Source: Halomonas sp. BDJS001 (GTDB lineage: Bacteria > Pseudomonadota > Gammaproteobacteria > Pseudomonadales > Halomonadaceae). From it: a stretch of 64,000 bases of DNA. This document shows positions 47,679-64,000 of this stretch, piece by piece. The notes below the pieces were generated by a model, which made no database searches, was not told the origin of the DNA, and saw nothing but the letters and a program-made list of their open reading frames with translations. Position 1 is the stretch's first letter. Each line of letters opens with the position of its first letter. The stretch spans positions 3,844,001 through 3,908,000 of the forward strand of contig NZ_CP110535.1 in the NCBI RefSeq assembly GCF_026104355.1, written 5' to 3'. A program made the position numbers and the translations under genes.

Positions 47679-48516
47679 TTAATCATCATCCTTCAAAATA
47701 TTATTGATTACTAATGAAAGAAGCCTAGCACCATCCCCGCTTGGCATGAGGTGGGCAAAATCTCCAAAATAACTATCCACAAAACCTTCATCGTTGTAAA
47801 AATTGATTATCGGAACATCATAATCCAAATTAAACTCATTTTTCAGCTCTAAAAGACCAGAAAAGATACTTCCAAAATCTTTGCCAACTGCCTTTCTATA
47901 ATCAGATCTCACAGGTGGAATCACTACATAAACCTTATGTCCCATTCTCTGAGATAATGAAATTATTTTTGCTAAATAAAGATTAAAATCCTTACTAGCA
48001 TTATGCTTCATATGAGCTGACGAGCGAATATCGACGCCTATATTTTCAGATAAAAACCCTTTCCCAGTTGTCAAAAAACCTCTTTCTCCATTAATTTCAA
48101 CGTCGTAATCGTTAAAATGACCTTTTATCTTACTAGCTGACTCAACTAGCACTTCGTCATCATAAGTAAAGCCGAGATCAAAAAGTTCATTAACAGCTAC
48201 AGAAATTTCTTTTTCACTATTACTTCTCTCTAAAGAAAACCCAGAGGAAAAAACTGAGTAAAAAACAACTACATTTTTTTAAATTTGGCAAAGTGTTACA
48301 CACGTAACTATAAAGCCCAAAAGAGTGCTTCAAATCTAAAGACCTATAGCAAAGATTAAACGAATTATCACAATAACGAGGATCAAAGCCAAAATCACCA
48401 TGAGAGGAACCGACAACAATAGTTTCAATGGTATCTTTTTCTCTTTTCAACATCGTCCTTTTTGCTGCGAGAGTTCGTATTGCTTTATTTAAAAGCGGCG
48501 ACAATTTAATCTCCAA
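47679..48516 (-). pseudogene. SGNH/GDSL-like hydrolase split by a one-base frameshift
   Basis: Two frames join into one gene if one A is removed from an A7 run (T7 at 48274-48280 on the plus strand): the corrected product would be 278 residues. The 5' part has ETIVVGSSHGDFGFDPRYCD, a GxSxH-type first block; the 3' part ends with SYFGDFAHLMPSGDGARLLS, a D-x-x-H block, together typical of SGNH esterases. Across the run the text reads LPNLKN-VVVFYSVFSSGFS. As it stands translation would stop soon after the run. It could be a dead gene, a phase-variable one, or a base-call error. The strong AT bias suggests acquired DNA; such enzymes often modify glycans. Confidence 0.7.
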
Positions 48517-48769
48517 CTCACACCTCTTAAATTCAGTCGGTTGTTAACAACAAAACACACAAGAACAATTATAATAAAAATTATCATTAATAACATAATT
48601 TCTTAACAGGACAGAAACATACAAAATCTTTCAAAAAAACACATAACCCGAAGACCTGTCAACATTACTACGATTAAAAAAAGCATCTCTTTAAATCTTA
48701 ACAGATGCGCTATAACTTATCATCTATACTATCTAGTCCGAATTTCTCACTGGGTATAAACGAAAGAAG
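48517..48769. other. AT-rich intergenic region
   Basis: About 250 bp, very AT-rich, upstream of the broken SGNH gene and before the IS1380 scrap. It probably holds the promoter of the SGNH gene, but I could not choose a -35/-10 pair with confidence. Confidence 0.35.
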
Positions 48770-49009
48770 TTGAAGGTGTTAAAATTTCAGGGCCTCACAC
48801 CAAAAATAACACCAACAGCCGCTTCTAAAATGGTGCCTGAAAAACTGGCCTTCTCGCCACTCTCCCGCCGCAAAATTAAAGCTGATTTCTCCAGGGCTCA
48901 CATTACCTCCAACGCCGAATTACTCCTGCTTTGCGAAATCGATACACAATATCGCCTGATGCGTCGTTTGGCATCGGTGCTTCGTAATCGATCCAATAAC
49001 CACATCTAG
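48770..49009 (+). mobile_element. IS1380-type transposase N-terminal fragment
   Basis: The 79-residue frame contains KIKADFSRAHITSNAELLLL followed by CEIDTQYRLMRRLASVLRNR, closely following the N-terminal pattern of IS1380-family transposases (V-ADF-GG-ITSDAG-LLLREVD). The catalytic DDE part is missing. The flanking sequence changes to an IS66 scrap at about 49021. Confidence 0.65.
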
Positions 49010-49020
49010 ACAGTGATTGC

Positions 49021-49182
49021 TCAGACCAGTAATGTTTCTTTGCCACTGCAGGACAGTAGCGTGTTGAGGTCATCGTTGTTGAGAGTCAGCAGCGTCTCCA
49101 AGATGTGGTGTAAGTAGTCTTAGGGCCAGAGGCCATTGGCTTTGGCGGTTTCGATCAGGCTGCAGATCGCCACGCTGGACTG
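49021..49182 (-). mobile_element. IS66-type transposase C-terminal fragment
   Basis: The minus strand reads SVAICSLIETAKANGLWP, a stop, then DYLHHILETLLTLNNDDLNT to a TGA at 49021. SLIETAKANGL-PYxYL is the conserved IS66 TnpC end. One internal stop replaces the expected Tyr, and the upstream transposase is gone. Confidence 0.7.
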
Positions 49183-49254
49183 ATCGCAACTCCACCCACT
49201 GTCGGCCTTGTTGTCCGGCTAGCGATATCACCTTATTCTAGAGAGCGTAAAGCA

Positions 49255-50260
49255 GCCGTACTAAAAAAGTTATTGCCACCCCAGAATCGCAGTGTGGTAT
49301 TGGTCACCACTGAAGAAGTCATCTCTATCACGACGCTGTATAGTTGGCTAAAACAGTATCGAGAAAAAGGAGTACCTGTGGCTGGGTTATAACCCAAAGC
49401 CACAACGAGTGATCGCCTGATGCCAAGCTTGCTGTGGTCATCGAAACCGTCACCCTGTCAGAAACAAAGCTTAGTGCTTACTGCCGCGAAAAAGCCTTTA
49501 TCTCAAGCAGCACCAGGAGAGGAAAGCCGCTTACCTACAGGGCGCTGGCAATCAAGAAGACCAAGCAAAAACGGTACAAGACAACGTAAAGAAGACCGTA
49601 AAATGATCAAACGGCTCAAAGCAGAAGGACGCCGCAAAGACAGAGTCTTGGCGGAAACGACATCATTGCCGGTGCTTTCAAAAAGCTCGACACCTGTTAC
49701 GACAAAAACCCAAACGGCGGTAGAGGAAGTCTGACGCCTCTTGAGAAACGTGCAAGGCTTATTGGCTTGCTTGAAGCAGCGGTAAAAGTGGGGGGCGCTT
49801 CACGCTATAAAGCAGCGGCGATGATAGACATGAGCGAGCACGTGCTGAAACGCTGGCGTTCAGGATGTGGAGTGGTGGTGAGGATCAGCTTTCACACAAT
49901 GCACAAGGCAGTCAGCCACATCAGTTGACTCAAGAGGAGGAACAGTCCATTTTGAGCGCCTGTAATCGCCCCGAGTATCAGAGCCTGCCGCTGTCTCACC
50001 TAACTCGGAAGCGTTGTTCCTCACCGTCAAGTATTCGCCCACAAAGAGCTTTGCATCGCTAAGCGCGGTAAGTGACGGCTTCTGAGCGGCATCGAGGTGT
50101 CGACTGAGAACGTCTTGAGCACCGCAAAGCGGTTTACAAACGGGCTAAGCGCCGACCTACACAACACTGGTCGGGCAACACCCGAAACGGGGAGATGCTC
50201 GTTTCGATATGGCCCAATCCTGGAAAAGTGCACGAAATTGGGCGTAATAAACAGGCTGCT
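49255..50260 (+). mobile_element. decayed IS3-family transposase (both frames broken)
   Basis: Pieces in several frames follow IS3-family order: KKLLPPQNRSVVLVTTEEV then TLYSWLKQYREKGVPVAG (helix-turn-helix), KLSAYCREKAF-like residues near 49470, RQRKEDRKMIKRLKAEGRRKD (charged coiled coil), KRARLIGLLEAAVKVGGASR then YKAAAMIDMSEHVLKRW, and LTQEEEQSILSACNRPEYQS, the start of the second reading frame. Frameshifts and stops separate them. The integrase core after ~50100 is only faintly traceable. No intact terminal repeats were found. Confidence 0.7.
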
Positions 50261-50559
50261 TAGAGGCAGCCATTTGGACAACTGGGTTGAAAATCAACCC
50301 GAGCTAACATCGAGTACATTATTTTTACCTTGCTGGAACGTGATAACGCTTAGAAAGTCGTGATGAATACCAATATCATCCGTCAAGAGCTCACAAAGCA
50401 GCTGCACGCAACAGACCTATTAACGTATGCTCAGGTCTTTGACACACAGAATTAGCTAAAAGTGGCATCATCAGCGCGAAATATTTTATTATCTCACTTA
50501 AACAGCCAGTGCAAGCCTAAGAAATAGTCCTTTAAAAGCTATCAAACAAGGAGCAATGT
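50261..50559. other. intergenic region upstream of the acyl-sugar cassette
   Basis: About 300 bp of mixed decayed DNA and AT-rich sequence. It probably carries the promoter for the plus-strand cassette. An AAGGAG ribosome site at 50548-50553 belongs to the first gene. No other structure could be supported. Confidence 0.4.
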
Positions 50560-50805
50560 GTGAAAAACACTATTCAAAGAATTTTTCTAGAAGTTTTTCA
50601 GCGAGAAGCCAGGGGTAAGACACCTCCAGCTATCAATGACGATTTGATACTTTTAGAATCAGGGCTTGATAGCCTTGGTTTTGCTATCCTTGTTGTAGAG
50701 CTAGAAGACCAACTTGGTTATGACCCATTTTCGATAGCAGATGAAGCTTTCTATCCACAGACCTTTGGCGAGTTCGTAGAATTCTATGAAAAACACAAGC
50801 CTTAA
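50560..50805 (+). CDS. acyl carrier protein
   Basis: 81 residues, GTG start with AAGGAG upstream. The 4'-phosphopantetheine site is ESGLDSLGFAIL (Ser of DSL, about residue 38), in an acidic four-helix carrier as expected. The Gly after DSL-L differs from housekeeping AcpP (ADSLDTVE), so this is a specialised carrier. It overlaps the ligase gene by 20 bp, so the two are likely partners: the ligase would load an acyl group onto this ACP for sugar acylation. Confidence 0.92.
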   Translation: MKNTIQRIFLEVFQREARGKTPPAINDDLILLESGLDSLGFAILVVELEDQLGYDPFSIADEAFYPQTFGEFVEFYEKHKP

Positions 50806-52159
50806 ATCCCATCTTGAGGTTGTGACTGCGGCCAGTCCTGAACGTATTGCGATATATACGCCACATAAAAAAATCAGTTATTTGGATATCTGCGATATCA
50901 CGTGGGATCATAGCGGCAGCGCGGTTGTTGTTTATTGTAAAGACATTGTTGATCAGGCTCGAATGCTGATTGCTTTAGACGGTACAGCATCTTCTATTTG
51001 TCCAATCAGCACACGAATGTCCAAAACGGATATTTCGAGCATTTTAAACCAACATAGCTTTTCACATGTCGTAACTGACCTACCTATTGAAGAGACAGCA
51101 TTATTTACTGAGAAGGGTCTTACAATTGTTAGCACTTCAGAACCGAAGCCAGCAGCAACTGATGAGAAACCAGTAGAGTGGATTAAAACAACGTGGCTTG
51201 TGCCAACATCGGGGACGACTGCATCTCCGAAGTTAGTTCTGCATTCACTGGATACACTCGCTCGAATGGCTCTAAAAACAACTCAGACAGAATCTATGCC
51301 ACACGTCTGGGCACTATTTTACGATGTTACGCGCTTTGCTGGTTACCAAGTTTTCTTTCAAGCATTGCTTGGCGGTCATACCCTAGTCGTGCCTGACCTA
51401 ACAGCGCCGATGAATGAGTGTGTAAAATTTTGCTTACTTACTGGCGTAACTCATATATCTGCTACAGCTACCCTATGGCGAAAAATTTTGATGTGTCCTG
51501 GTAGTGAAAAACTCAATTTGCAGCAGATCACTTTAGGCGGTGAAGCAGCAGATGAGACAATACTAGTCGCACTAAATAAAAGTTTTCCTAGAGCACGTAT
51601 TACTCATGTCTATGCCTCAACAGAAGCAGGTGTAGGGATATCTGTCAGTGACGGTAAGGCTGGCTTTCCTCTTTCATTTTTAGATGACAATGCTGCCGTA
51701 GTGCAGAGTACTATACGTGATGACCACTTATTTTTACGCTCTCGCGGCGCTGGCCAACGTTATGCTGGTGAGCAAAGCTTATCTAACGAGGAGGGCTGGA
51801 TAAACACTGGCGACTTAGTAAGTGTAGAGGGAGACCGTTTTTACATTGTAGGAAGAGCAAGTGGGGTGTTAAATATTGGGGGGGACAAGGTAATACCAGA
51901 GCAAGTGAGGCACGTTCTTCTTGAGCACGAAAACATTTTAGAAGCACATGTATACGGAAAGAAAAACCCCTTCACTGGCACGTTAGTTGTAGCTGATATC
52001 AAACTACGTGATAGCTTGGATGAAAGTGAATCCAGAGTAGACATTGAAAATTTTATAACTGAAAAACTCGCACCATATCAGCGTCCTAAAGTTATTCGAT
52101 TTATTGATGAAATCAAAACAAATTTAACGGGAAAAATGGTACAAAAAAATGAACACTGA
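50786..52159 (+). CDS. AMP-forming acyl-ACP/CoA ligase
   Basis: 457 residues, an ANL-superfamily adenylating enzyme. The P-loop is VPTSGTTASPKLVLHS, followed by THVYASTEAGVGISV (A5-type motif), GWINTGDLVSVEGDRFYIVG (A7) and the C-terminal catalytic lysine in TNLTGKMVQKN (A10). Short for the family, with a reduced N-terminal part. Genetic overlap with an ACP at the 5' end and an SDR at the 3' end (11 bp) suggests that it loads a short acyl group onto the ACP. The substrate is not readable from sequence. Confidence 0.9.
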   Translation: MKNTSLKSHLEVVTAASPERIAIYTPHKKISYLDICDITWDHSGSAVVVYCKDIVDQARMLIALDGTASSICPISTRMSKTDISSILNQHSFSHVVTDLPIEETALFTEKGLTIVSTSEPKPAATDEKPVEWIKTTWLVPTSGTTASPKLVLHSLDTLARMALKTTQTESMPHVWALFYDVTRFAGYQVFFQALLGGHTLVVPDLTAPMNECVKFCLLTGVTHISATATLWRKILMCPGSEKLNLQQITLGGEAADETILVALNKSFPRARITHVYASTEAGVGISVSDGKAGFPLSFLDDNAAVVQSTIRDDHLFLRSRGAGQRYAGEQSLSNEEGWINTGDLVSVEGDRFYIVGRASGVLNIGGDKVIPEQVRHVLLEHENILEAHVYGKKNPFTGTLVVADIKLRDSLDESESRVDIENFITEKLAPYQRPKVIRFIDEIKTNLTGKMVQKNEH

Positions 52160-52877
52160 TCGTCAAGATACAGTAGTCGTTACAGGCGCTGCAAAAGGGC
52201 TTGGTTTAGCTATATCAAAGGAACTGGTTGCAGCCGGCTATAATGTCATTGGAATCGGACGTAACGTTACGCAAGAGTTTAATACGCTGCCTAGTGAACG
52301 CAGCCATTTCATTGAATTTGACCTCACGCAGATCGGAGAAATTCATGGACTGGTAAACGATATTATGGATTTAATAGGCCAAGCCCCATACGGGCTGGTA
52401 AATAATGCTGGAACTGGCCTTGATGGCTTACTTGCCACTCAGCACGCATCTGATATTTCGCGTGTATTAGCGCTCAACTTGGAAGCACCGATCACATTGA
52501 CAAAATATATGGTTCGGCAGATGATGAAAGTAAGACGTGGACGAATTGTTAATATATCATCAATAATTGCGCAGACTGGCTTTAGCGGCTTATCCGTTTA
52601 TGGCGCAACTAAAGCAGGTTTAGAAGGGTTTACACGTTCTTTATCACGAGAAGTGGGCCGTGCAGGCATCACTGTAAATTGTGTAGCGCCTGGTTACATG
52701 ATGACAGATATGACGCAAGGGTTAGCAGGGTCAAAGCTTGAGTCAGTCAAGCGTCGCGCGCCACTTGGTTTGCCAGATCCTTTACATGCGGCTCATGCTG
52801 TTCGATATTTGCTTGAACCCGGCGCGGAAAAAACCACTGGCACAATATTAACAGTCGATGGCGGCAGTACTGCATAA
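52149..52877 (+). CDS. SDR-family reductase, FabG-like
   Basis: 242 residues. Rossmann motif VVTGAAKGLGLAIS, LVNNAGTG and the catalytic Ser-Tyr-Lys set (NISSIIAQTG ... VYGATKAGLEG) are present, and the end (GTILTVDGGSTA) is FabG-like. In this context it most likely reduces a 3-oxoacyl group on the neighbouring ACP to 3-hydroxyacyl before transfer to an amino sugar. Direct action on a sugar is the alternative. Confidence 0.93.
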   Translation: MNTDRQDTVVVTGAAKGLGLAISKELVAAGYNVIGIGRNVTQEFNTLPSERSHFIEFDLTQIGEIHGLVNDIMDLIGQAPYGLVNNAGTGLDGLLATQHASDISRVLALNLEAPITLTKYMVRQMMKVRRGRIVNISSIIAQTGFSGLSVYGATKAGLEGFTRSLSREVGRAGITVNCVAPGYMMTDMTQGLAGSKLESVKRRAPLGLPDPLHAAHAVRYLLEPGAEKTTGTILTVDGGSTA

Positions 52878-52890
52878 TTAGGAGAGAACG

Positions 52891-53604
52891 ATGACTAATG
52901 ATTCTGTAGAAATAATAATTCATGGGTGCGGTGCCATGGCTATCGAGTTGGCTATGTATATAAATGATGTTACACACCATAGCGAGAACAGTGATAAGAA
53001 ACTGATCGTTACTGATATTGTTTCTAGTGAGTTTTCACGAGCGGACGACATTCAAAACGTTCTTGGTTATTCAGTATCTTTTCACAGCAGCATCACAAAT
53101 ATTGATCGCTTTGCAGAAAAAAAATCTATCATTAGCATAGGCACAGCCTTAACAGTCAAGCAAAAAAGATCTGAGATAAAGGCCGCAGGGGGAAAGTTCA
53201 TCACAATAATACACCCTAGTGCAGTAGTTTCATCACTTGCAAATATTGGGCAAGGAGTAATTGTTGCACCATTTGTTTTCATTGGCCCTTTTTCAAATAT
53301 CGGTGATAATGCGATAATAAACGTACATTCTACAATTGGCCACGATGTTTCAATTGGTTCTGGCGCCGTTATTTCCCCACATGTTGATGTCAATGGTGAA
53401 TCTAGCATTGGTGAATATACGTTTCTAGGTGCGGGAGTGGTTGTGGATCCACGCACAAACATTGGACGGTATTGTAAAATATCGTCTGGCACTGTTATTA
53501 AAAAAGACATATCAGACGGAATTTTAGCATTTGACCGAGAGTCACCTAAGAGCGTTAAGATGTTTAGCTCTGAAGATGGTAAGAGCTTGCTCAGTAAGCA
53601 ATAA
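52891..53604 (+). CDS. NeuD/PglD-type sugar acyltransferase
   Basis: 237 residues with an AGGAG site. An N-terminal PglD-like Rossmann-type region (IIIHGCGAMAIELAMYIND) is followed from ~residue 105 by a left-handed beta-helix of hexapeptide repeats (IHPSAVVSSLANIGQGVIVA, INVHSTIGHDVSIGSGAVIS, IGEYTFLGAGVVVDPRTNIG). The His in HSTIGHDV lies where PglD has its catalytic base. These enzymes N-acylate UDP- or dTDP-4-amino-sugars. With an ACP and reductase beside it, an acyl-ACP donor such as 3-hydroxybutyryl is plausible. Confidence 0.85.
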   Translation: MTNDSVEIIIHGCGAMAIELAMYINDVTHHSENSDKKLIVTDIVSSEFSRADDIQNVLGYSVSFHSSITNIDRFAEKKSIISIGTALTVKQKRSEIKAAGGKFITIIHPSAVVSSLANIGQGVIVAPFVFIGPFSNIGDNAIINVHSTIGHDVSIGSGAVISPHVDVNGESSIGEYTFLGAGVVVDPRTNIGRYCKISSGTVIKKDISDGILAFDRESPKSVKMFSSEDGKSLLSKQ

Positions 53605-54222
53605 TTTTAATGCTCGAAACATTAACTATTCTAGAGTTTTTAATATTAAAGTACAGCCCACTTATGATTAATTATCCACAGCAATCATCCTCTATTAGAT
53701 TAGCAAGTATTTGCAACTTTCTTTGTCGATAAGCTTTATGGCTAACCAGTAACACATGAGGGGGTGTGGCGTTACCTATGGCTCGTACCAAGGTCAAGAA
53801 AAAGCCAGTAGCTTCTTTGGTATAGAAAAAGCAGCTATAAAAGGATTTTAAAAGCTGTATCCAGATAGCTCGAAAAGTGCATAACCCGCTGATTTAAAAT
53901 AAATTTTATATTCTGCTATCAGCTGACGGACAACTACCATGCTTTAAATGATATTCATAAGGCCAACAAATACCGCTTTTCTACCAATTGAGGTTGATGC
54001 ATTCTGTCAGAATTAAGACATATTTAACTGGTTAAATCCGCTCGACTCAGAATTTCGCATTAAGGCCAGCTTTAAAAATTACGTCATGTCCATTACAGGT
54101 TGCGCAAGATTCATTGGTAGTGGTTCGCAAGGTTTCACACTGTCACAAAGCATTGATGGTTTTATGCAATCCACTGAGAAAACCAATTACGGGGCCTACT
54201 TAAAACAAGTATCGAGAGAAGC
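53605..54222 (+). pseudogene. decayed coding region before the aminotransferase gene
   Basis: Some 618 bp without an intact gene. The last ~70 codons are open and read WLNPLDSEFRIKASFKNYVM, SITGCARFIGSGSQGFTLSQ and SIDGFMQSTEKTNYGAYLKQ to a TGA that overlaps the next ATG (ATGA), the mark of a once-coupled gene. Upstream the frame is closed, and other frames give only scraps. I do not recognise the protein. It may be a lost member of the acyl-sugar cassette. Confidence 0.5.
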
Positions 54223-55335
54223 ATGAGCGATAAACCAATTTATGTGACAGAGCCTTACCTTCCACCGCTAGAAGAGTTCATTCCATATTTAGAAAAGATA
54301 TGGAAAAGCAAGCGTCTCACTAATAATGGGCCAATGCACCAACAGCTTGAAGAAGCCCTGTGCGAGTACCTAGGAGTACCTGAAATAGCGCTTTTCAATA
54401 ACGGAACTATAGCGCTCCTAACTGCTTTACAGGCACTGAGAATTACTGGCGAAGTTATTACTACGCCCTTCTCATTCGTAGCAACGGCACATTCCTTGAC
54501 TTGGAACGGCATTACACCTGTTTTTGTTGACATTGATCCTAACACTTTCAACCTTGATCCTAAAAAAATTGAAGCTGCCATTACCTCTCGCACTACAGCG
54601 ATCATGCCCGTTCATTGCTATGGAAATCCGTGTGATGTAAATGCTATTCAGGAAATTGCGGATAAATATAATCTCAAAGTTATTTATGACGCTGCGCATG
54701 CTTTCGGTGTTCAAGACGAAGGAGGCAGTATCTTAAGACATGGTGATTTAAGCGCGATAAGCTTCCATGCTACTAAAGTATTTAACACTTTCGAAGGCGG
54801 CGCTATCATTTGCCCTGATAAAAAAACGAAACAACATATCAATAACTTGAAAAACTTTGGTTTCGTTGACGAAGTTACCGTTGTTGCGCCAGGTATTAAT
54901 GGAAAGATGAGTGAAGTGAATTCAGCATTTGGTTTACTTCAGTTGAAATATATTGACGCAGCTCTTGAAAGTAGAAAGTTAGTAGACAAGCACTACAGGG
55001 ATGCGTTAAGTGAAATAAAAGGTATTAGATTATTGAAGCCCTTAGACCTTGAGAAGCATAATTTTTCTTATTTCCCAATAGTAATAGACAAGGAATATCC
55101 GATAAGCAGAGATAAACTTTACTTTTTATTAAGAGAAAAAAATATTTACGCACGCAGGTATTTTTATCCATTAATTAGCAACACCACCCATTACAATAGC
55201 AGATTTAAAGAAAATCATCTGAAAAATGCGAAGTCAATTTCTGAAAAGGTTATATGTTTACCTATTTTTCCGGAAATAGAGAAGATAGCGCTTTCAGAGA
55301 TTTCATCAGTTATTAGCAATCCAATTAAAAGGTAA
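54223..55335 (+). CDS. DegT/DnrJ/EryC1 nucleotide-sugar aminotransferase, VioA/FdtB type
   Basis: 370 residues, a PLP enzyme. The Schiff-base lysine lies in SFHATKVFNTFEGGA; TTPFSFVATAHSLTWNGITP and the acid pair in VIYDAAHAFG are typical. It resembles transaminases that act on dTDP-4-keto-6-deoxyglucose (for example VioA), giving a 4-amino sugar, but 3-amino enzymes look similar. It is distinct from PseC at 61785-62945. It would supply the amino group acylated by the NeuD-like enzyme. Confidence 0.85.
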   Translation: MSDKPIYVTEPYLPPLEEFIPYLEKIWKSKRLTNNGPMHQQLEEALCEYLGVPEIALFNNGTIALLTALQALRITGEVITTPFSFVATAHSLTWNGITPVFVDIDPNTFNLDPKKIEAAITSRTTAIMPVHCYGNPCDVNAIQEIADKYNLKVIYDAAHAFGVQDEGGSILRHGDLSAISFHATKVFNTFEGGAIICPDKKTKQHINNLKNFGFVDEVTVVAPGINGKMSEVNSAFGLLQLKYIDAALESRKLVDKHYRDALSEIKGIRLLKPLDLEKHNFSYFPIVIDKEYPISRDKLYFLLREKNIYARRYFYPLISNTTHYNSRFKENHLKNAKSISEKVICLPIFPEIEKIALSEISSVISNPIKR

Positions 55336-55514: not shown

Positions 55515-57128
55515 ATGGTTATCATTAAAAAAAGATATTCGCTTTCAAAAAAAATAAAGTTAATAGTGAAAAATAATATTTTTTATCCTATTACTCAGAA
55601 CCAGGTTGACCGCATAGATAAACTGATAAGCTTAGAGCAAAGTCGAGGATACTCAGTTAGCCTATCAAGCTACGATTGGCGAATTTGCCTTATAGAGAAA
55701 CAAATACATCCTAAATTAACCATAACCTTACTTCTTCCTGACTTAGTTATAGAGCCAGAATATAGCATTCCAAAAAATAGCTTTTACACTAAATACAAGC
55801 ATGAGTATTTTTCAAAACATGGGCTTTACGGTAACGACTGCGATTGGTTTTTTTCTTTCAATCCTAGGAGGTACAATCTTGATTTAAAAGCTGTAAAAAA
55901 TGCAGCCATAGTAGAAAAAATAAAAATAACTAAAAGCTGTAAAAAAACGCCAACCAGAACTACTTTTTTGAGTGAAACATCTTTTATTAACTATATAGAC
56001 TATTCTTATAGATCAAGAAACATACACTCTGCAACCTGGAACTATAAATTTAAAAGCCATCTAGTTAGCATGGCCGACTACTTCCAACTTGAATATGTAG
56101 TTAACACGGTACGCGCAAAGGCAATTTTTCGTAGCATAAGTGAAGCTGCAAGCGAGGCTGAAAAAGTACCAAATTTGACACATGGGCAATCAATTGAATA
56201 TTTTTATCATAAATTGCAAGAAATAGATCCACTCCCTGACATTGATAGCTTTAAAACATTGTGGAAAAACTCCGTATTTATAAACAAGCTATCTGGGATT
56301 TATTTTGCTAAAGGTGATATAGAAAATTACATAAACTGTAAAAAAATAGAACTCAATGAATTACTTAAAATTCACTCTAACAAACCAAAGAACATAACGG
56401 AAAGTGTTCTCTTAAGTTCTTTGCACTCTCATATAACTAAAGGAACATCTGTTTTTAGAAATCGAAACATTAATGACCGAAAATTTGAAAATCTTATTTT
56501 TGGCAAAAGCGTAGCTATTGTAGGCTCGGCATCTACCGCTCAACCACAAGGCGCAGAAATTGATAACTTCGATATTGTTTCACGCATGAACTTTCCTGTC
56601 GACAACTCAGAAAACGTACTCTATTTAGGGAAAAGAACCGACGTAATATATAAATCAACATCTATTATCAGAAACGTAGACAACAATCAAAGTTCACAAA
56701 ATAGCGGGATTTTTTATAACTACTTATCTATTATTCCTTTGCTCAATAACGAGAACAATGCGCGAACTATACAGGAATTAGGAAACAACTTACTAACTAT
56801 GCCTCATTCGGCACCAAGAAGTTTAATCGACTTAATAACATTCTCACCAAGAAAAATAAAAGTTTTTAACTGCACTCTATATGCCAATATAAACAAAGCA
56901 TCCACTTATGATGAAAAATATAGAGAAAAAATTTCAAATCTTAATATTAAAAATTTATCTTTCACACAACAAGGAAAACTTATAAGCAATTTTTCGCATG
57001 ATTTCTGTTTAAATTTCTTATTAATGAAGTGCATGTATCTAGGAAATTTATATGAAGCTGATGATAAACTAAAAGAAGTTTTAGAAATGAGTCTTGAAAG
57101 CTACATAAACAACTTAGTCGAAGGGTAA
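55515..57128 (+). CDS. putative GT29 (sialyltransferase-like) glycosyltransferase
   Basis: 537 residues. The N-terminal ~330 residues have no motif I know. From ~residue 330, FGKSVAIVGSASTAQPQGAE, IDNFDIVSRMNFPVD and LGKRTDVIYKST follow the L-sialylmotif of GT29 (VVGNSG-x-GxEIDxxDxVxRMN ... GxxT). Near the C-terminus, NFSHDFCLNFLLMKCMY could correspond to the S-motif region. GT29 enzymes transfer a CMP-nonulosonic acid. The gene ends convergently with the pse operon, which makes such a donor. The family call is by eye and needs a structure-based check. Very AT-rich codon use marks it as acquired. Confidence 0.65.
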   Translation: MVIIKKRYSLSKKIKLIVKNNIFYPITQNQVDRIDKLISLEQSRGYSVSLSSYDWRICLIEKQIHPKLTITLLLPDLVIEPEYSIPKNSFYTKYKHEYFSKHGLYGNDCDWFFSFNPRRYNLDLKAVKNAAIVEKIKITKSCKKTPTRTTFLSETSFINYIDYSYRSRNIHSATWNYKFKSHLVSMADYFQLEYVVNTVRAKAIFRSISEAASEAEKVPNLTHGQSIEYFYHKLQEIDPLPDIDSFKTLWKNSVFINKLSGIYFAKGDIENYINCKKIELNELLKIHSNKPKNITESVLLSSLHSHITKGTSVFRNRNINDRKFENLIFGKSVAIVGSASTAQPQGAEIDNFDIVSRMNFPVDNSENVLYLGKRTDVIYKSTSIIRNVDNNQSSQNSGIFYNYLSIIPLLNNENNARTIQELGNNLLTMPHSAPRSLIDLITFSPRKIKVFNCTLYANINKASTYDEKYREKISNLNIKNLSFTQQGKLISNFSHDFCLNFLLMKCMYLGNLYEADDKLKEVLEMSLESYINNLVEG

Positions 57129-57244: not shown

Positions 57245-58276
57245 TTAGCGAACCGGGGTATTCGACTTAACATCCTGAGTTACTTTCTTTCCTAATATCT
57301 CTTTTAACATTTTGGGAGGCAAACCATATCCGGGTCTTACGCTTCTTACGGCATCTTCTGTAATAACATCTCCTGCTTTCAAATCCTTAACGAAATAAAG
57401 TGAGCGACGAAATTGAACATTACCCTGCTCGCTGGCTTTCCTACTATAGTTAACATGGCCGAGGGCTTTCCAGGCGACTTTACTGTTCTTGCATAATGCT
57501 GCCAAATCAGCGGGCTCTAGTGAGAAGCTATCGTCTGGGCCACCTCCGTTACGATCAAGTGTGAAGTGTTTTTCAATAAGAGATGCCCCCATCGCAATGC
57601 TGGCAATAGCGGTTGTGTTATCCAGTGTATGATCAGACAACCCTGTGACCAATCCAAAACGCTTTATCATGTCTGGAATCGTTTTTAAATTGTAATCTTC
57701 GGCAGGAGCAGGATAGCCACTCACACAATGTAAAATGGCTAACTCTTTACATCCACCTTCTCTCGCGGCTGTGATAGCTTCCTCAATTTCCTCTGCATTG
57801 GCCATGCCGGTAGATATAATCATGGGCTTGCCGGTAGCTGCGACATAGCGAATAAGCGCTAAGTCGACCGCTTCGAAGGAGGCAATTTTATAGGCTGGTG
57901 AATTCAGGTCTTCCAGCAGATCTACAGCGGTTGTATCAAAGGGGGAGCTGAAAATTGGAATACCTATCTTTTTAGCGTGTTCGAATAGAGGTTTATGCCA
58001 ATCCCAAGGTGTATGTGCCCAGTCATAAAGCTCATACAAAGTTTTTCCATCCCAGAGGCCGCCTTTAATCTGGAAATCAGGTAGATCGGAGTTCAGCGTG
58101 ATAGTATCCGGTGTGTATGTCTGAATTTTTAGGGCATCAGCACCCGCTTTTTTGGCTTCTTCTATTATACGAAAAGCCGTTTCAATATTGCCATTATGGT
58201 TGGCTGACATTTCGGCTATGATGTAGGTAGGCTGATTAGGACCAATTGTCTTACCGGCTATTACTACATTAGTCAT
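57245..58276 (-). CDS. pseI: pseudaminic acid synthase
   Basis: 343 residues. NeuB-family barrel: YIIAEMSANHNGNIETAFRI near the start, ADALKIQTYTPDTITL, FSSPFDTTAVDLLEDL, HCVSGYPAP and GLSDHT, with ASLIEKHFTLDRNGGGPDDS carrying metal and substrate ligands. A C-terminal SAF domain (RRSLYFVKDLKAGDVITEDA) follows. The YELYDWAHTPWDWHKPLF stretch is of the PseI type, condensing 2,4-diamido-altrose with phosphoenolpyruvate. Last gene of the operon, overlapping its neighbour by 8 bp. Confidence 0.95.
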   Translation of the reverse strand: MTNVVIAGKTIGPNQPTYIIAEMSANHNGNIETAFRIIEEAKKAGADALKIQTYTPDTITLNSDLPDFQIKGGLWDGKTLYELYDWAHTPWDWHKPLFEHAKKIGIPIFSSPFDTTAVDLLEDLNSPAYKIASFEAVDLALIRYVAATGKPMIISTGMANAEEIEEAITAAREGGCKELAILHCVSGYPAPAEDYNLKTIPDMIKRFGLVTGLSDHTLDNTTAIASIAMGASLIEKHFTLDRNGGGPDDSFSLEPADLAALCKNSKVAWKALGHVNYSRKASEQGNVQFRRSLYFVKDLKAGDVITEDAVRSVRPGYGLPPKMLKEILGKKVTQDVKSNTPVR

Positions 58277-58916
58277 TATTCAGCTTCTCCAAAGTAATCT
58301 TGTATTTTTGTCCATGCACCTCGAACCAGGCTGGGTAACGATCCGGGTCACACATCCGTAGTAGATCAAACTGTTCTGATATAGATTTCTCAGGATTTAT
58401 TTGACTATCTTGTGGACCTCGACACCGATAATAGCTAGGCACGGCAATGTCACTCTGAGGTTGTGGATCGATTTGATTTAATTGCTCAATAGCCTCTGTC
58501 ATTAACTCAAGCTCTGCCTCGAAAAGCAAATGATTCGCTTCGTACCAAAGGGCGGTTTTCTCTATCGGGATTTTTCGTTTGCGCCAGATTCGGCCGGTAT
58601 CTACTTGATTTTCAGCTTCCAAGAGGCTTAAGGTAATTTCTCTGGCACCATTCACTAATTCCCAAACATGAGGGCTCCACCCGCGGCCATATGGTAGATC
58701 GCTAGCGTGCAGAACTAGAGTATAGTTGTACCCTCTTCGATGTTGTTGCTTAATAATGTCAGAACAGGAAACTAAAAATAAAAAATCTCCGCCAGTGAGC
58801 TCTGATCGGGAGCGCGCAAGTTCAATCTCATGTACTGCCTTGTGCTGCTGCATCCAACGCTTCAAGTACACGTTAACAGGGTGGCTAGCGTCGCTACATA
58901 AAATGGTGATCTTCAT
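58269..58916 (-). CDS. formyltransferase-like protein of the pse operon
   Basis: 215 residues. VLHASDLPYGRGWSPHVWEL followed by VDTGRIW matches the formyltransferase core (H-x-S-x-LP ... DTG). The Asn that normally sits two residues before the His is Val here, a subfamily feature or a loss. It stands where other pse operons have the PseH N-acetyltransferase, and no PseH is seen. The inference is N-formylation of the 4-amino group of the altrosamine intermediate, giving a 7-N-formyl pseudaminic acid. It overlaps pseG by 4 bp and pseI by 8 bp. Confidence 0.75.
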   Translation of the reverse strand: MKITILCSDASHPVNVYLKRWMQQHKAVHEIELARSRSELTGGDFLFLVSCSDIIKQQHRRGYNYTLVLHASDLPYGRGWSPHVWELVNGAREITLSLLEAENQVDTGRIWRKRKIPIEKTALWYEANHLLFEAELELMTEAIEQLNQIDPQPQSDIAVPSYYRCRGPQDSQINPEKSISEQFDLLRMCDPDRYPAWFEVHGQKYKITLEKLNND

Positions 58917-60016
58917 AAGTTGTCCTCATGACTTAATACGGCAACCACACGCATGCACCCTTGGCCATCGCAGACTTTCTGGGATTTATCTGACATTCTC
59001 ATCAGCATTGTACTTTGGACTTTAAGCTCTTGAATCACCTCTCTGATCCGGGCATCGACGTCCTCCACAGTGGACATTTGAGCACAGCCCGTTTGCTCAA
59101 GCGCAGTTGCAATCAATCGTTGGTTGTTTGCTAGCACAATCATTATTGAAGGCAAGCCCAAGCAACACCGCTCCCAAGAGGTGCTTCCAGCGCCACCAAT
59201 TGAAAAATCAGCAGCACACATACGGTTTGCCATATCACTAACGCTAATACTCACCGCGGTCTGGAAAGAAAGCTTGGAGGCCTGCTTTTTTACAGCTTCA
59301 AGATGCGGAGCAAAATTCCCCATCACGATATCCAACTCAGTCTCTGGAGGTAGACCGCTGTTTGAAAGTGCTTTAAGTACCTTGCCAGTGACATTGGTTC
59401 GGTCACCCCCCCCCATAGAAATCAAGATACGTTTTAGTTTCGGTGAGCGCCTGCGCTTAAGACTGACCGACCTGAGGTCTGTGAATTCAGTACGAAGGAG
59501 CGCATACTTTGGCCCAATCAGTTGCTTGCAAGTCGGAGGAACCAATGTTTCATAATCAGAAGGTTCCCGGCCCAGATTTTGATCCAATAACAACGCACAG
59601 TCATGCTCCCGGTCAGCTAGGTCATCAATCGCCATAATGTGACCAACAGCGTGGACTAATGAGCGCTCCCACTTAGCATCAAGTCCGTAATGATCGACGA
59701 TTAACCAATCTGGGGCGTGTCCCATGAGCACCCTTAGCGTCTGCTCTGCATCAGTTTGCCAGGGAGCTTCTAACCAATCGGAGTGAGCCAAATCTGCTTT
59801 ATCATTGGCAAAAGTGCCCAACTGCTTAGGTGTATGCAGCACATGAAGTTCAAAATCTTTTTGAGTAATTAAGTTCCCCAAGTGGCCTTCGTGATTTCTA
59901 CAAATAAACAAGCACTGATGTCCTTGCCGACGTAATTCGTCAGCGAGGGCAAGGCAGCGCATAACATGGCCGGTGCCAATCTTAATAGATGCATCAACTC
60001 TAAAGAATATTTTCAT
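58913..60016 (-). CDS. pseG: PseG UDP-sugar hydrolase of pseudaminic acid synthesis
   Basis: 367 residues from the ATG at 60016 (MKIFFRVDASIKIGTGHVMR), the family start with a catalytic His in GTGHVMRC; an in-frame ATG at 60031 adds five residues. GT-B fold with ISMGGGDRTNVT and DFSIGGAGSTSWERCCLGLP in the UDP-binding half. It removes UDP from the diamido-altrose before condensation by PseI. No strong ribosome site, in an AT-rich gap after pseF. Confidence 0.94.
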   Translation of the reverse strand: MKIFFRVDASIKIGTGHVMRCLALADELRRQGHQCLFICRNHEGHLGNLITQKDFELHVLHTPKQLGTFANDKADLAHSDWLEAPWQTDAEQTLRVLMGHAPDWLIVDHYGLDAKWERSLVHAVGHIMAIDDLADREHDCALLLDQNLGREPSDYETLVPPTCKQLIGPKYALLRTEFTDLRSVSLKRRRSPKLKRILISMGGGDRTNVTGKVLKALSNSGLPPETELDIVMGNFAPHLEAVKKQASKLSFQTAVSISVSDMANRMCAADFSIGGAGSTSWERCCLGLPSIMIVLANNQRLIATALEQTGCAQMSTVEDVDARIREVIQELKVQSTMLMRMSDKSQKVCDGQGCMRVVAVLSHEDNL

Positions 60017-60051
60017 TGTGTTTAACGACATTTTTTATTTTAAGCATCATA

Positions 60052-60726
60052 TTATAAATCATCATCGGAGAATTTAGATAACAATACATTATAATCAGAG
60101 AGAGTATCTAAATCACAAACTTCTTCCTCTGGAACATCAAAAACAAAAAGATTATTGCTATAGAACGTTTTCTCTATTAAGAAAGAATCTTTTCTACCCC
60201 AATAAAACGTTCCATTGCTTACCCGAAATTTAGGCTGAAATTGAGATTGAACCCCCAGATAGTGAGGCAGTAGCAACTCAGCGCTTGCATTACTATCAAC
60301 TTTCAGGGCTTGTGCCGGCGAATAGTTATAAGATGAAACTCCCATAACAACATTAGCATTACGACTAGTTTCAAAAAGCTCAAAAGAACTCCTTAGTGTT
60401 CCAGGCTTTAATAATGCCGCTGTAGCATAAACACAACAAAATAAATCATAGTTGCCATTTAATAAAACATCTTCACATACTTCAGCTACTGTAGATCTGT
60501 CTTCTGCTAAAGAATGGCTCCTATTATAAACAAAAGCATCTGCAGCTTTAGCAATTTCAGCTATTTCATCATCTTCGGTTGAAACAATTATTTTTGAAAA
60601 AAGTTTGCTAGCTTGACAACAATCTATTACTCGTCCGAGCAATGGTTTACCGCCCAGAGGTAATACATTTTTCCGAGGAAGGCGCTTTGACCCTCCTCTT
60701 GCAGGTATAATCGCGACAGGTTTCAT
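60052..60726 (-). CDS. pseF: pseudaminic acid cytidylyltransferase
   Basis: 224 residues. The CMP-sugar synthetase start KPVAIIPARGGSKRLPRKNV and SEDDEIAEIA-type region (VSTEDDEIAEIAKAADA) are clear. PseF activates the nonulosonic acid to its CMP form, the donor for glycosyltransferases such as the GT29-like protein. Its ATG overlaps the stop of the frameshifted synthase (ATGA). Confidence 0.95.
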   Translation of the reverse strand: MKPVAIIPARGGSKRLPRKNVLPLGGKPLLGRVIDCCQASKLFSKIIVSTEDDEIAEIAKAADAFVYNRSHSLAEDRSTVAEVCEDVLLNGNYDLFCCVYATAALLKPGTLRSSFELFETSRNANVVMGVSSYNYSPAQALKVDSNASAELLLPHYLGVQSQFQPKFRVSNGTFYWGRKDSFLIEKTFYSNNLFVFDVPEEEVCDLDTLSDYNVLLSKFSDDDL

Positions 60727-61792
60727 GACAGATCTTTAACTGATAAAACATGCCCTTTGGGCAATGCTTTATTAAAGTACATATTAGTCATATTTTCATA
60801 CTGATCAGGTGCAATACCGTATCCAGGTCTCTTGAACTTTATTTTTGCTGAGGATAATTTTTGCCCTTCAGATACTGCTTCATCTAAAATTGCACTTCTT
60901 CTAATATTTAAACGGTTTGCTTTCTCTTGGTCAGTCATAATTCTGCGGGGTTCCCCCATTGCTTGCTCGACGTCTCGTATAGTGTTTACAAATTTTTTCA
61001 TTTCGTGTGGTTCGATAGACATTACATGCTCTACGCTTCGAGTCGTTTTGTCTTCTGTTATCGTTTTTTCTACCAAATTTGCCCAAGCGCTACTGCTGCG
61101 ACATCCATTATTTCACCAGGGGAATGGTCTGAATAGGCAACTGGGCATTTGAAAATTTTCTTTATATTTGGAAGCATATTGAGATTTATGCTATCAAGAT
61201 GTGCGGGGTAGCCAGAAGGGCAATTATGAATGATGATTTTATCGTTGCCCTCACTACGAATTACATCTACCGCTTGTTCGATTTCACCAAAAGTGGCATT
61301 ACCAGTATCTAACTGAAGGGACACTCCCAAATTAGCAATTTTTCTAAGCCAAGGAAGGTAGTTAACGTCTGCTGATGCTATCTTAACAGAATGGCAGCCA
61401 AGCGACTTTACCAACTCAAACCCCGCTTCATCTCCGATAGTTGCAAAAAAAGTAAGGCCCAGCTCATCTGCATACGTCTTAAGCTCTCTCCATGAACTTT
61501 CAGGCATGCTGCGCCTTCTAAAAATTTCATACAACGATTCAGATACCGTTTCAGTTTTGCCTGTCTGCTTATCAATTAATACATCGTAGCTGTACATCAA
61601 TCCTTTATCAGCCACAAGTTCGTCCGGATCAAAAATCTGAAACTTGACTGCGTCACCACCAGCTTCTGCAGCATGTCTAACCAGAAGTTTTGCACTTTCT
61701 AAGCCATTGTGTGTCGGGCCAGCTTCAAAAGTGATAAATGTTTTTTCGCCATCACCTACATATTTATCACCTATCTTTACGATATTAGTCAT
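60723..61792 (-). pseudogene. second NeuB-family nonulosonate synthase, frameshifted
   Basis: Two frames make one 356-residue NeuB-family protein if one G is added to the GGG near 61082-61085. The 5' part runs TFITFEAGPTHNGLESAKLL ... VKFQIFDPDELV ... HNCPSGYPAHLDSINLNMLP ... VAYSDHSPGEIMDVAAVALG; after the break LVEKTITEDKTTRSVEHVMS and a C-terminal SAF-like domain (LSSAKIKFKRPGYGIAPDQY) follow. Both halves look well conserved, so the break is recent or a base error. It is distinct from PseI in this operon, and its ATGA coupling to pseF and 8-bp overlap with pseC are kept. Confidence 0.85.
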
Positions 61793-62945
61793 CTAATAAT
61801 CCTTTAAGAATATTCGAAATCTTAATTGGTTCAGAAGTAGCCATATTTGGAAACATCGGAAGACTGATGGCTTCGCGGTAATACTGCATTGCTTGGGGGT
61901 AAGCGTATGGTTTAAACCCCATTTTCTGATAATAAGGCTGAGTATGAACGGGGATATAATGCAGGTTCACGCCTATTCCTTGTTCTCTCAGAGAGTCAAA
62001 AACTTGACGGTGTGTTTTGCGTATTGCACCTAGCTTCAGACGAATCACATATAAGTGCAGACCGGAATAACTATCTGGGTGCTGCCATGGCGTTGTTATA
62101 GGTAGGCCTTCTAAGAGTGCATTGTAGCATTTGGCCAGCTCATGGCGGCGACCGACATACGCATCTAATCGATCCATCTGGCTGATGCCAAGAGCAGCTT
62201 GTAACTCCGTCATACGATAGTTATAGCCTAGCTCCAACTGCTGGTAATACCAGGGGCCATCCGGCTCATGCGTCATTAGGTTCTGATCTCGGGTAATCCC
62301 GTGGCTTCGCATTAGGTTCATGCGGCTAGCCAGTTCGTCATCATTGGTCAGCGCCATACCGCCTTCAGCGGTGGTGACAATCTTTACCGGATGGAAACTG
62401 AAGACGGTAATGTCACTGTAGCGTCCACTGCCGATGTATTCGTCTTTATACTTGCCACCAATGGCGTGGGAAGCATCTTCAATGATGCTGAAACCAAAGC
62501 GTTGACTCAAGTCATAGATAGCTTCCATATCGCAGGGCTGTCCACACAAATGAACGGCCACCAATACTTTCGGTAGGCGGTTATACTGCTCGGCTTCTTG
62601 CAGCTTGAATTCAAGAGCCTTCGGACATAGATTGTAGGTTCTTGGGTCGATATCCACGAAATCGACCCAGGCACCGCAATACAATCCACAATTGGCAGAA
62701 GCCACGAAGGTAATCGGCGTCGTCCACAGCCAATCACCCGATCCCAACCCCAGCGCTTTGCAGGCGATGTGTAGGGCTGAAGTTGCGCTGTTTACAGCAA
62801 GCGCGTGTTTGGCATTCACATGCGCTGCTACTTTCTGCTCAAAAGCAGGCACTTTTGGGCCTTGTGTTAGGAAGTCTGAGGTCAATACATCAACTACAGC
62901 ATCAATATCAGATTGTGTGATATCCTGTCTGCCATATGGAATCAT
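61785..62945 (-). CDS. pseC: PseC aminotransferase
   Basis: 386 residues, PLP-dependent. YGRQDITQSDIDAVVDVLTS at the start and DFLTQGPKVPAFEQKVA are PseC signatures; the PLP lysine is in FSFHPVKIVTTAEGG, and LGYNYRMTELQAALG is conserved. It makes UDP-4-amino-4,6-dideoxy-N-acetyl-beta-L-altrosamine from the PseB product. It lies 2 bp after pseB and overlaps the next gene by 8 bp. Confidence 0.96.
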   Translation of the reverse strand: MIPYGRQDITQSDIDAVVDVLTSDFLTQGPKVPAFEQKVAAHVNAKHALAVNSATSALHIACKALGLGSGDWLWTTPITFVASANCGLYCGAWVDFVDIDPRTYNLCPKALEFKLQEAEQYNRLPKVLVAVHLCGQPCDMEAIYDLSQRFGFSIIEDASHAIGGKYKDEYIGSGRYSDITVFSFHPVKIVTTAEGGMALTNDDELASRMNLMRSHGITRDQNLMTHEPDGPWYYQQLELGYNYRMTELQAALGISQMDRLDAYVGRRHELAKCYNALLEGLPITTPWQHPDSYSGLHLYVIRLKLGAIRKTHRQVFDSLREQGIGVNLHYIPVHTQPYYQKMGFKPYAYPQAMQYYREAISLPMFPNMATSEPIKISNILKGLLDD

Positions 62946-62947
62946 AA

Positions 62948-63946
62948 TTAAATCTTGCCAATTTCGTTATAGTGATTATCAATCCAGTTTTTTAGCTCGT
63001 TGTCGGTCATCCATTCAGTGTTGTTATCGCTTGAGTACACAAAACCTTCGGGCACCTTTTTGCCATCTTTGATACGTTCTATAGAGTTTCCCCAGTTATT
63101 GATACTCGGCAATATCTTAAAGTGTTCCGTATACTCGTAGGTAAAGTGAGAATCTTCTGAACCAATCATTTGTTCATGTAGTTTTTCACCAGGACGAATA
63201 CCAACTATTTCTTGCTTGGCCTCAGGTGCAATAACGCGCGCCAAGTCTGTGACTCTCATCGAAGGAATTTTCTTTACATAAATCTCGCCACCAACCATGT
63301 CTTCAAAAGCATGCCAAACAAGTTTTACGCCCTGCTCCAGACTAATCATAAAGCGAGTCATGCGTAGATCAGTAATAGGTAGTACACCCTTGTCTTTGAT
63401 AGACATAAAAAACGGTATTACGGAACCACGTGACCCCATTACGTTGCCATACCGAACCACGGAAAATTTGGTTTCATGGCCACCAGCGTAGGAGTTACCC
63501 GCTACAAAAATTTTGTCAGATGCTAGCTTTGTAGCGCCATACAAATTTATGGGGCTGCTGGCTTTATCGGTGGACAGCGCAACTACCCCTTTAACCCCCT
63601 TGTCGATACATGCATCGATCACGTTCATGGCACCATTGATATTGGTCTTGATGCACTCAAAGGGATTATACTCAGCGGTGGGTACAATTTTTGTGGCGGC
63701 CGCATGTACTACATAATCCACGCCATCCAGTGCGCGATACATGCGCTCCCTATCACGCACATCGCCGATAAAAAATCTTAGCCGATCATCGTTTTGAAAC
63801 AGTTTGGCCATCTCCCACTGTTTCATCTCATCACGGGAGAAAATAATAACCCGACGTGGATTGAAGCGTGCAAGTAACATAGGCACAAAAGTATGGCCAA
63901 ATGAGCCGGTTCCACCGGTAATCAAAATTGATTTATCGTTAAACAT
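62948..63946 (-). CDS. pseB: UDP-GlcNAc 4,6-dehydratase (inverting)
   Basis: 332 residues from the ATG at 63946, with AAAGG upstream. A longer frame to 63985 lacks a site. MFNDKSILITGGTGSFGHTF has the Rossmann motif, VIIFSRDEMKQWEMAKLF is the PseB/FlaA1 signature, and the catalytic region has STDKASSPINLYGATK with Lys in place of the usual Tyr of the YxxxK start. It starts pseudaminic acid synthesis by 4,6-dehydration and C5 inversion. First gene of the operon in this window. Confidence 0.96.
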   Translation of the reverse strand: MFNDKSILITGGTGSFGHTFVPMLLARFNPRRVIIFSRDEMKQWEMAKLFQNDDRLRFFIGDVRDRERMYRALDGVDYVVHAAATKIVPTAEYNPFECIKTNINGAMNVIDACIDKGVKGVVALSTDKASSPINLYGATKLASDKIFVAGNSYAGGHETKFSVVRYGNVMGSRGSVIPFFMSIKDKGVLPITDLRMTRFMISLEQGVKLVWHAFEDMVGGEIYVKKIPSMRVTDLARVIAPEAKQEIVGIRPGEKLHEQMIGSEDSHFTYEYTEHFKILPSINNWGNSIERIKDGKKVPEGFVYSSDNNTEWMTDNELKNWIDNHYNEIGKI

Positions 63947-64000
63947 ATGCACCTTTCTCAAATGCGTAGAAAACCATGGAACCACTTTCTATCAGATCTG
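63947..64000. other. pseB upstream sequence at window edge
   Basis: Only 54 bp remain beyond the pseB start, enough for the ribosome site (AAAGGTGCAT) but too short to judge whether the operon starts here or continues outside. Confidence 0.5.

Follow-up and report, generated by a model that had tools for sequence, protein, structure and literature searches.

A branch of the sialic acid synthase family with a replaced manganese-ligand histidine lies in pseudaminic acid operons and has a member split by a frame loss in Halomonas sp. BDJS001

Nonulosonic acids decorate flagella and capsules. Sialic acid synthases are called metalloenzymes in one account of the family (PMC6795526), and another describes the manganese of NeuB as coordinated by two histidines and Campylobacter jejuni as having several NeuB synthases (NeuB1, NeuB2 and NeuB3), each for one sugar acid (PMC7591256). 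The region around phosphoenolpyruvate (PEP) and C1 is reported to be conserved in all three known isozymes, as is a Phe at the C2-specificity position for pseudaminic acid (Pse) synthases (PMC7371886). In the same superfamily, KDO8P synthases are reported to split into metal and non-metal enzymes through one residue (PMC3052366).

The window, a stretch of 64,000 nucleotides from the single 4.97 Mb contig of the Halomonas sp. BDJS001 genome, carries on its minus strand (57245-63985) genes in the order pseB, pseC, a NeuB-type gene, a PseF-like CMP synthetase gene, pseG, a formyltransferase-like gene and pseI. The first-pass annotation had placed a NeuB-type gene with a broken frame between pseC and pseF, and we find it there as two open frames of 240 and 117 amino acids. 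The features of the operon are as follows:

62948..63985, minus strand: pseB, UDP-GlcNAc 4,6-dehydratase (inverting); TIGR03589, 548.9 bits
61785..62945, minus strand: pseC, UDP-4-amino sugar transaminase; TIGR03588, 549.9 bits
61070..61792, minus strand: N-terminal part of the NeuB-type protein, 240 aa; NeuB PF03102, E 2.3e-50, 171.7 bits (gathering score 22.1)
60723..61076, minus strand, in a different frame: C-terminal part of the NeuB-type protein, 117 aa; NeuB C-terminus E 1.8e-7, SAF domain E 9e-6
60052..60726, minus strand: PseF-like CMP synthetase; 179.8 bits, below the PseF equivalog cut-off of 205.7
58913..60031, minus strand: pseG, UDP-sugar hydrolase; TIGR03590, 319.2 bits
58269..58916, minus strand: formyltransferase-like protein, probably the N-acylation step in place of pseH; PF00551, E 1.1e-6
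57245..58276, minus strand: pseI, canonical pseudaminic acid synthase, intact; TIGR03586, 510.7 bits against a cut-off of 340.25

Both parts of the split gene score above the NeuB family threshold, the C-terminal part with 31.4 bits for NeuB (gathering score 22.1) and 26.6 for SAF (against 21), and they align end to end with the NCBIfam profile (length 329), covering 1-216 and then 219-328. The N-terminal part holds the TIM barrel as far as strand 8, the frame being lost immediately ahead of the catalytic Glu and of a position at which His has become Thr, and the C-terminal part holds the end of the barrel, with the motif EKTITED, and the SAF domain. The two frames join at approximately 61076-61083, at a short G run, and the coupling overlaps are kept, as had been claimed: the upstream frame shares 8 bp with pseC and the downstream frame 4 bp with pseF. 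Comparison with relatives revealed an intact 356-aa copy at the same operon position in Vreelandella subterranea (same genus), with 93% identity across its initial 237 residues and 87% identity to the C-terminal part over residues 238-356. A chance origin of the split gene is excluded.

The operon thus contains two different NeuB-family synthases, the split one and the intact PseI, as the annotation had also proposed. The split gene shares its fold and its operon with pseI, which would suit a plain pseI duplicate in decay, a reading to which we give practically no chance and which the tree refutes: identity to pseI is 31-32%, the two genes fall in separate clades, and relatives of the split gene occur at no fewer than 34 loci in several phyla. 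Specifically, in a tree of 72 rows (a quick search, without bootstrap) 33 rows form a clade, which we name NeuB-T, holding the split gene and its intact relatives, and the branch dividing them from 39 canonical rows, the PseI of the window among them, has SH-aLRT support of 100.

Whole-protein and pattern searches found NeuB-T in at least 34 loci, the window among them, from alpha-, beta- and gammaproteobacteria, Desulfobacterales, Myxococcota, Cyanobacteria, Bacteroidota, Fibrobacterota, Elusimicrobiota and others, with members at least 42% and non-members at most 38% identical to the query. It is rare at every level: 2/82 genomes of the genus, 2/275 of the family and, in drawn samples that both count the genome of the window, 2/369 of the class and 5/398 of the phylum. 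A single-protein search of viral records gave no relative, and phage records gave three distant matches (25-31% identity). Plasmid records gave two matches (34-37%), one of them the Mariluticola pse operon, and neither is NeuB-T, because both keep the canonical His. The intact V. subterranea protein scores 217 bits with the PseI profile TIGR03586, under the equivalog cut-off of 340.25, and three NeuB-T proteins score 266.6 (V. subterranea), 250.7 and 239.9 bits with the NnaB profile TIGR03569, under the cut-off of 399.65. The structure predicted for V. subterranea NeuB-T (27 sequences; pLDDT 92.9) finds PseI 8h2c and NeuB 1xuu as its best PDB matches (TM 0.82-0.86), and according to this model NeuB-T has a NeuB-like fold. 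The broken gene itself is ordinary and its family is not: NeuB-T is an undescribed branch of the sialic acid synthase family.

What sets the branch apart is its active site. We compared 32 NeuB-T with 76 canonical rows, after setting aside sequences of <300 or >420 aa, duplicates and four canonical rows below 100 bits, and took N. meningitidis numbering from the alignment. The residue that we take to be His236 of N. meningitidis NeuB, from the 2005 structure, is His in 76/76 canonical rows and is replaced in NeuB-T by Thr (31/32) or Asn (1/32); counted by loci among the matches listed, Thr is found in 33/34 and Asn in 1/34. Of the two Mn-ligand histidines expected of metal-dependent synthases, NeuB-T therefore has the first (32/32) and not the second. 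The Thr is not an artefact of the search, since 8/32 rows fail the one of our two search patterns that held EKTIT and five genomes came from the whole-protein search; the NeuB-T of locus L043 (576 aa, left out of the counts for its length) reads EKTLT. Five further changes accompany it, Asn29 to Thr, Ser154 to Asp and Asp247 to Glu in 32/32 rows and Leu180 to His and Gly245 to Ser in 31/32, and the six positions together divide NeuB-T from canonical rows almost perfectly. Among the papers listed by our literature searches, none described a NeuB subfamily without this His or a metal-independent NeuB, and no exception to sialic acid synthases being metalloenzymes is known to us.

Kept in 32/32 NeuB-T rows are the equivalents of Glu25, Lys53, Gln55, Thr110, Lys129, Ser132, Tyr186, Ser213, His215, Glu234 and Arg314. 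Most of these are described as pocket-lining residues (PMC6795526), and the others presumably line the pocket too. NeuB-T shares with NeuB/NnaB (TIGR03569; N. meningitidis 1XUU/1XUZ) the TIM barrel and SAF domain and most catalytic residues including Arg314, and differs from it in the Thr or Asn for one Mn-ligand His and in the changes at Asn29, Ser154 and Asp247. With PseI (TIGR03586; C. jejuni 8H2C) it shares the fold, the pse-operon setting and mostly a Ser at the 184 position, but apart from its low PseI score it has no Phe at the C2-specificity position. At that position, set four residues past Lys with the PseI Phe as guide, NeuB-T has Ala in 20, Gly in 8, Ser in 3 and Gln in 1 of 32 rows, and the canonical synthases of NeuB-T loci have Phe in 14/22 and Asp in 8/22. 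The Asp occurs in the partners at L009 (8222-9295), L025, L029, L030, L032, L033, L042 and L044; it is neither the Phe of Pse synthases nor the Gly of Neu/Leg synthases and marks another specificity group, often found with PIG-L and WbqC.

We favor, tentatively and at slightly under an even chance, the reading that NeuB-T is an active nonulosonic acid synthase whose carbonyl activation is altered, perhaps metal-free, and which makes a second sugar acid. Intact NeuB-T would condense PEP with a 2-acylamino sugar aldehyde; we infer this activity because the PEP and sugar residues are invariant. The carbonyl-activating metal site appears to have been rebuilt, since the metal ligand is lost across the whole clade, with Thr or Asn for one Mn-ligand His and with Asp and His at two other barrel-strand positions, and the enzyme may work metal-free, like the Asn-23 class of KDO8P synthases. 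The product would be a second nonulosonic acid beside that of PseI, and the neighboring non-canonical CMP synthetase would activate it. In the window strain the frame loss removes the barrel end and the SAF domain, and production of the second acid would be abolished, provided that the break is genuine.

Two observations on the active site count against this reading. In Caulobacter NeuB the mutation H245A, which changes one Mn-ligand His, is reported to give partial complementation only (PMC7591256), and H245 probably corresponds to the position lost in NeuB-T because its spacing from the catalytic Glu is 215 residues in both Caulobacter NeuB and V. subterranea PseI; loss of the His could therefore mean weak or no activity. 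In addition, the PEP phosphate may be disfavored by the Asp that stands in place of Ser154. A rival reading is that NeuB-T has lost catalysis, or has a regulatory role, and pairs with the canonical synthase by way of the domain-swapped dimer; the presence of a canonical synthase in 11/11 NeuB-T genomes searched whole would suit such a role, as would the lost Mn ligand. Dead partners usually lose catalytic residues, though, and here eleven are invariant in 32/32 rows, among them the Arg whose action is in the neighboring subunit; the canonical partners are moreover of two kinds (Phe or Asp at the C2 position). We consider a dead or regulatory role quite improbable.

The synthase reading must also account for the gene neighborhood. 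The usual order is pseB-pseC-neuBT-CMP synthetase, and full operons read B-C-T-F-G-I. Among the 34 loci in the matches listed, several of them cut by contig ends, pseC lies immediately upstream of neuBT in 22 and a CMP synthetase immediately downstream in 21, and pseB, pseG and a canonical synthase are present in 24 each. Where at least 8 kb is available on both sides (18 loci among the matches listed), a canonical synthase is found in 15 and a single CMP synthetase in 13. Against the 11/11 NeuB-T genomes with a canonical synthase, a phylum sample gave 60/150 under a more stringent cut-off, and these 60 include four NeuB-T genomes, one of them that of the window. The N-modifying genes differ among loci (formyltransferases, a PIG-L-like deacetylase, the hisH-hisF-wbpG amidotransferase, a class III aminotransferase), and neuBT is therefore tied to the core pathway and not to one acylation. 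That two synthases in one operon make two nonulosonic acids, as the annotation suggested, is possible, but the single CMP synthetase in 13/18 full loci makes two sugar acids awkward, and with mostly one PseB/PseC/PseG set per locus it is not obvious where a second sugar substrate would come from.

The CMP synthetases themselves are distinctive. When 91 CMP synthetases were placed in one tree (LG+G4, a quick search with many weak forks), 0/29 from NeuB-T neighborhoods fall within the canonical PseF clade, whose 16 rows include none with NeuB-T; most canonical rows were gathered through a PseF search, a choice that favors this split. The clade containing the CMP synthetase of the window consists solely of rows adjoining NeuB-T, and the similar Mariluticola plasmid operon (L013), which is without neuBT, has a PseF of the canonical clade. 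Such special CMP synthetases suggest that the product is not plain pseudaminic acid. Against the synthase reading, the 29 scatter over clades of 11, 9 and 6 rows plus three strays and do not form one clade. A check on small numbers agrees in direction with the split from the PseF clade: the PseF cut-off is exceeded by a CMP synthetase in 11/22 genomes that were chosen by PseI and gave no NeuB-T in the class and phylum searches vs 0/6 NeuB-T genomes. The value of 11/22 also shows that sub-threshold PseF-like enzymes are not limited to NeuB-T genomes.

The same observations bear on the possibility that NeuB-T performs other PEP or pyruvate chemistry, either modifying the PseI product before CMP activation or supplying an unusual acyl donor for acylation of the amino groups. 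Its CMP synthetase would then differ because it must accept the modified acid, consistent with the canonical-clade PseF of the Mariluticola operon, and the operons do resemble full pse operons with neuBT added and mostly carry one CMP synthetase. Furthermore, the changes of Asn29 to Thr and Ser154 to Asp and the loss of the His strike positions conserved in every canonical row, and the PEP and C1 region is described as common to all three known isozymes (PMC7371886). Opposing this, the site keeps without exception its Tyr, Gln and Glu as well as the Arg by which the N-acetyl sugar is positioned, which argues for a 2-acylamino sugar substrate. We know of no chemical precedent for such a reaction and regard it as unlikely. 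A parallel scheme (two acids) and a serial scheme (a modified PseI product) both fit the data, the parallel one fitting the residues better and the serial one the single CMP synthetase.

The gene reads as disabled in Halomonas sp. BDJS001, through either a recent event or a sequencing error. The annotation described both halves as well conserved and the break as perhaps recent. Relative to V. subterranea, dN/dS is 0.058 and 0.105 for the two NeuB-T halves, 0.067 for pseC and 0.099 for pseF, which bears out the conservation. Beyond the break dN is 2.0 times that before it, and the same ratio is 1.7 to 3.3 in six intact pairs, for which only dN ratios were used because most of these comparisons show saturated dS. 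Neither analysis showed selection to be relaxed since the break, and, because both halves are under purifying selection, the break is either recent, as suggested, or an artefact, an error fitting these values equally well. The annotation's further suggestion of a functional switch is not supported: in 50 bases inspected by eye at the junction there is no X XXY YYZ heptamer in frame ahead of the stop and no long repeat tract, and neuBT is split in none of the other 33 loci among the matches listed, one of which (L038) ends at a contig edge. We discarded a programmed frameshift for want of such a heptamer in these 50 bases.

An error of sequencing or assembly, with the gene intact in the living strain, concerns the break alone, and we lean against it while granting it a substantial chance. 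A short G run lies at the site of the break, the two halves are conserved, with a dN ratio inside the range of intact pairs, and among 110 V. subterranea genes checked in 1.26 Mb of this genome (a survey that left out 167 further genes with matches too weak or partial) the only other frame loss, in a subtilase gene, likewise lies at a short homopolymer run. On the other hand, 108/110 genes are intact and the genome is rated 100% complete, which indicates a low error rate. The frame-lost subtilase (S8) gene is at approximately 2004523-2005826 of the same contig, and pcnB, a candidate third broken gene, was discarded because its start is over-extended in the sister genome.

The operon of the window lies near two flagellin genes and genes that by eye resemble fliD, and that of V. 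subterranea lies near export- and capsule-type genes. From these surroundings, the sugar acid may go to flagellin in the window strain and to the capsule in V. subterranea. Tandem flagellin genes at 13732-14595 and 14850-15713 of L011, beyond the window, have identical products of 287 aa. Convergent with the pse operon, a plus-strand gene at 55515-57128 encodes a 537-aa protein with a weak match to a eukaryotic-type GT29 sialyltransferase (PF00777, E 0.0081, below cut-off), a candidate nonulosonic acid transferase. At 50560-55335 (plus strand) a carrier-protein-like ORF (81 aa, by eye), an AMP-ligase, an SDR, a hexapeptide acyltransferase and a DegT aminotransferase lie in a row and resemble a module for making and attaching an unusual acyl group. 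Between both gene blocks, 48152-50560 (about 2.4 kb) is without long open frames and is possibly decayed DNA. Judged by ORF translations only, 2806-30511 holds a gene block resembling a type VI secretion system.

Among described systems, the C. jejuni NeuB set, known here by description, resembles NeuB-T in having several synthases per genome, and differs in that the canonical rows aligned here keep the His without exception. Metal-independent KDO8P synthase (Asn-23 class) shares the superfamily and a subfamily-wide change of a metal ligand to a polar residue; there, in contrast, the change is Cys to Asn, the SAF domain is missing and the substrate is phosphorylated, so the likeness is one of analogy. 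If our reading holds, a widespread subfamily minus one metal ligand parallels the metal and non-metal split of the KDO8P synthases. The stronger claim, that NeuB-T is the first metal-independent branch of nonulosonic acid synthases and, together with its own groups of CMP synthetases, makes a sugar acid of none of the known Neu, Leg and Pse types in several phyla, concealed within pse operons by a generic name, we consider doubtful. NeuB-T would flag a sugar acid that current family models leave unnamed, and hints at a novel surface sugar of bacteria whose synthesis dispenses with the usual metal. The motif EKTIT, where EKHFT would be expected, provides a clear sequence marker for the branch that can be applied to any genome.
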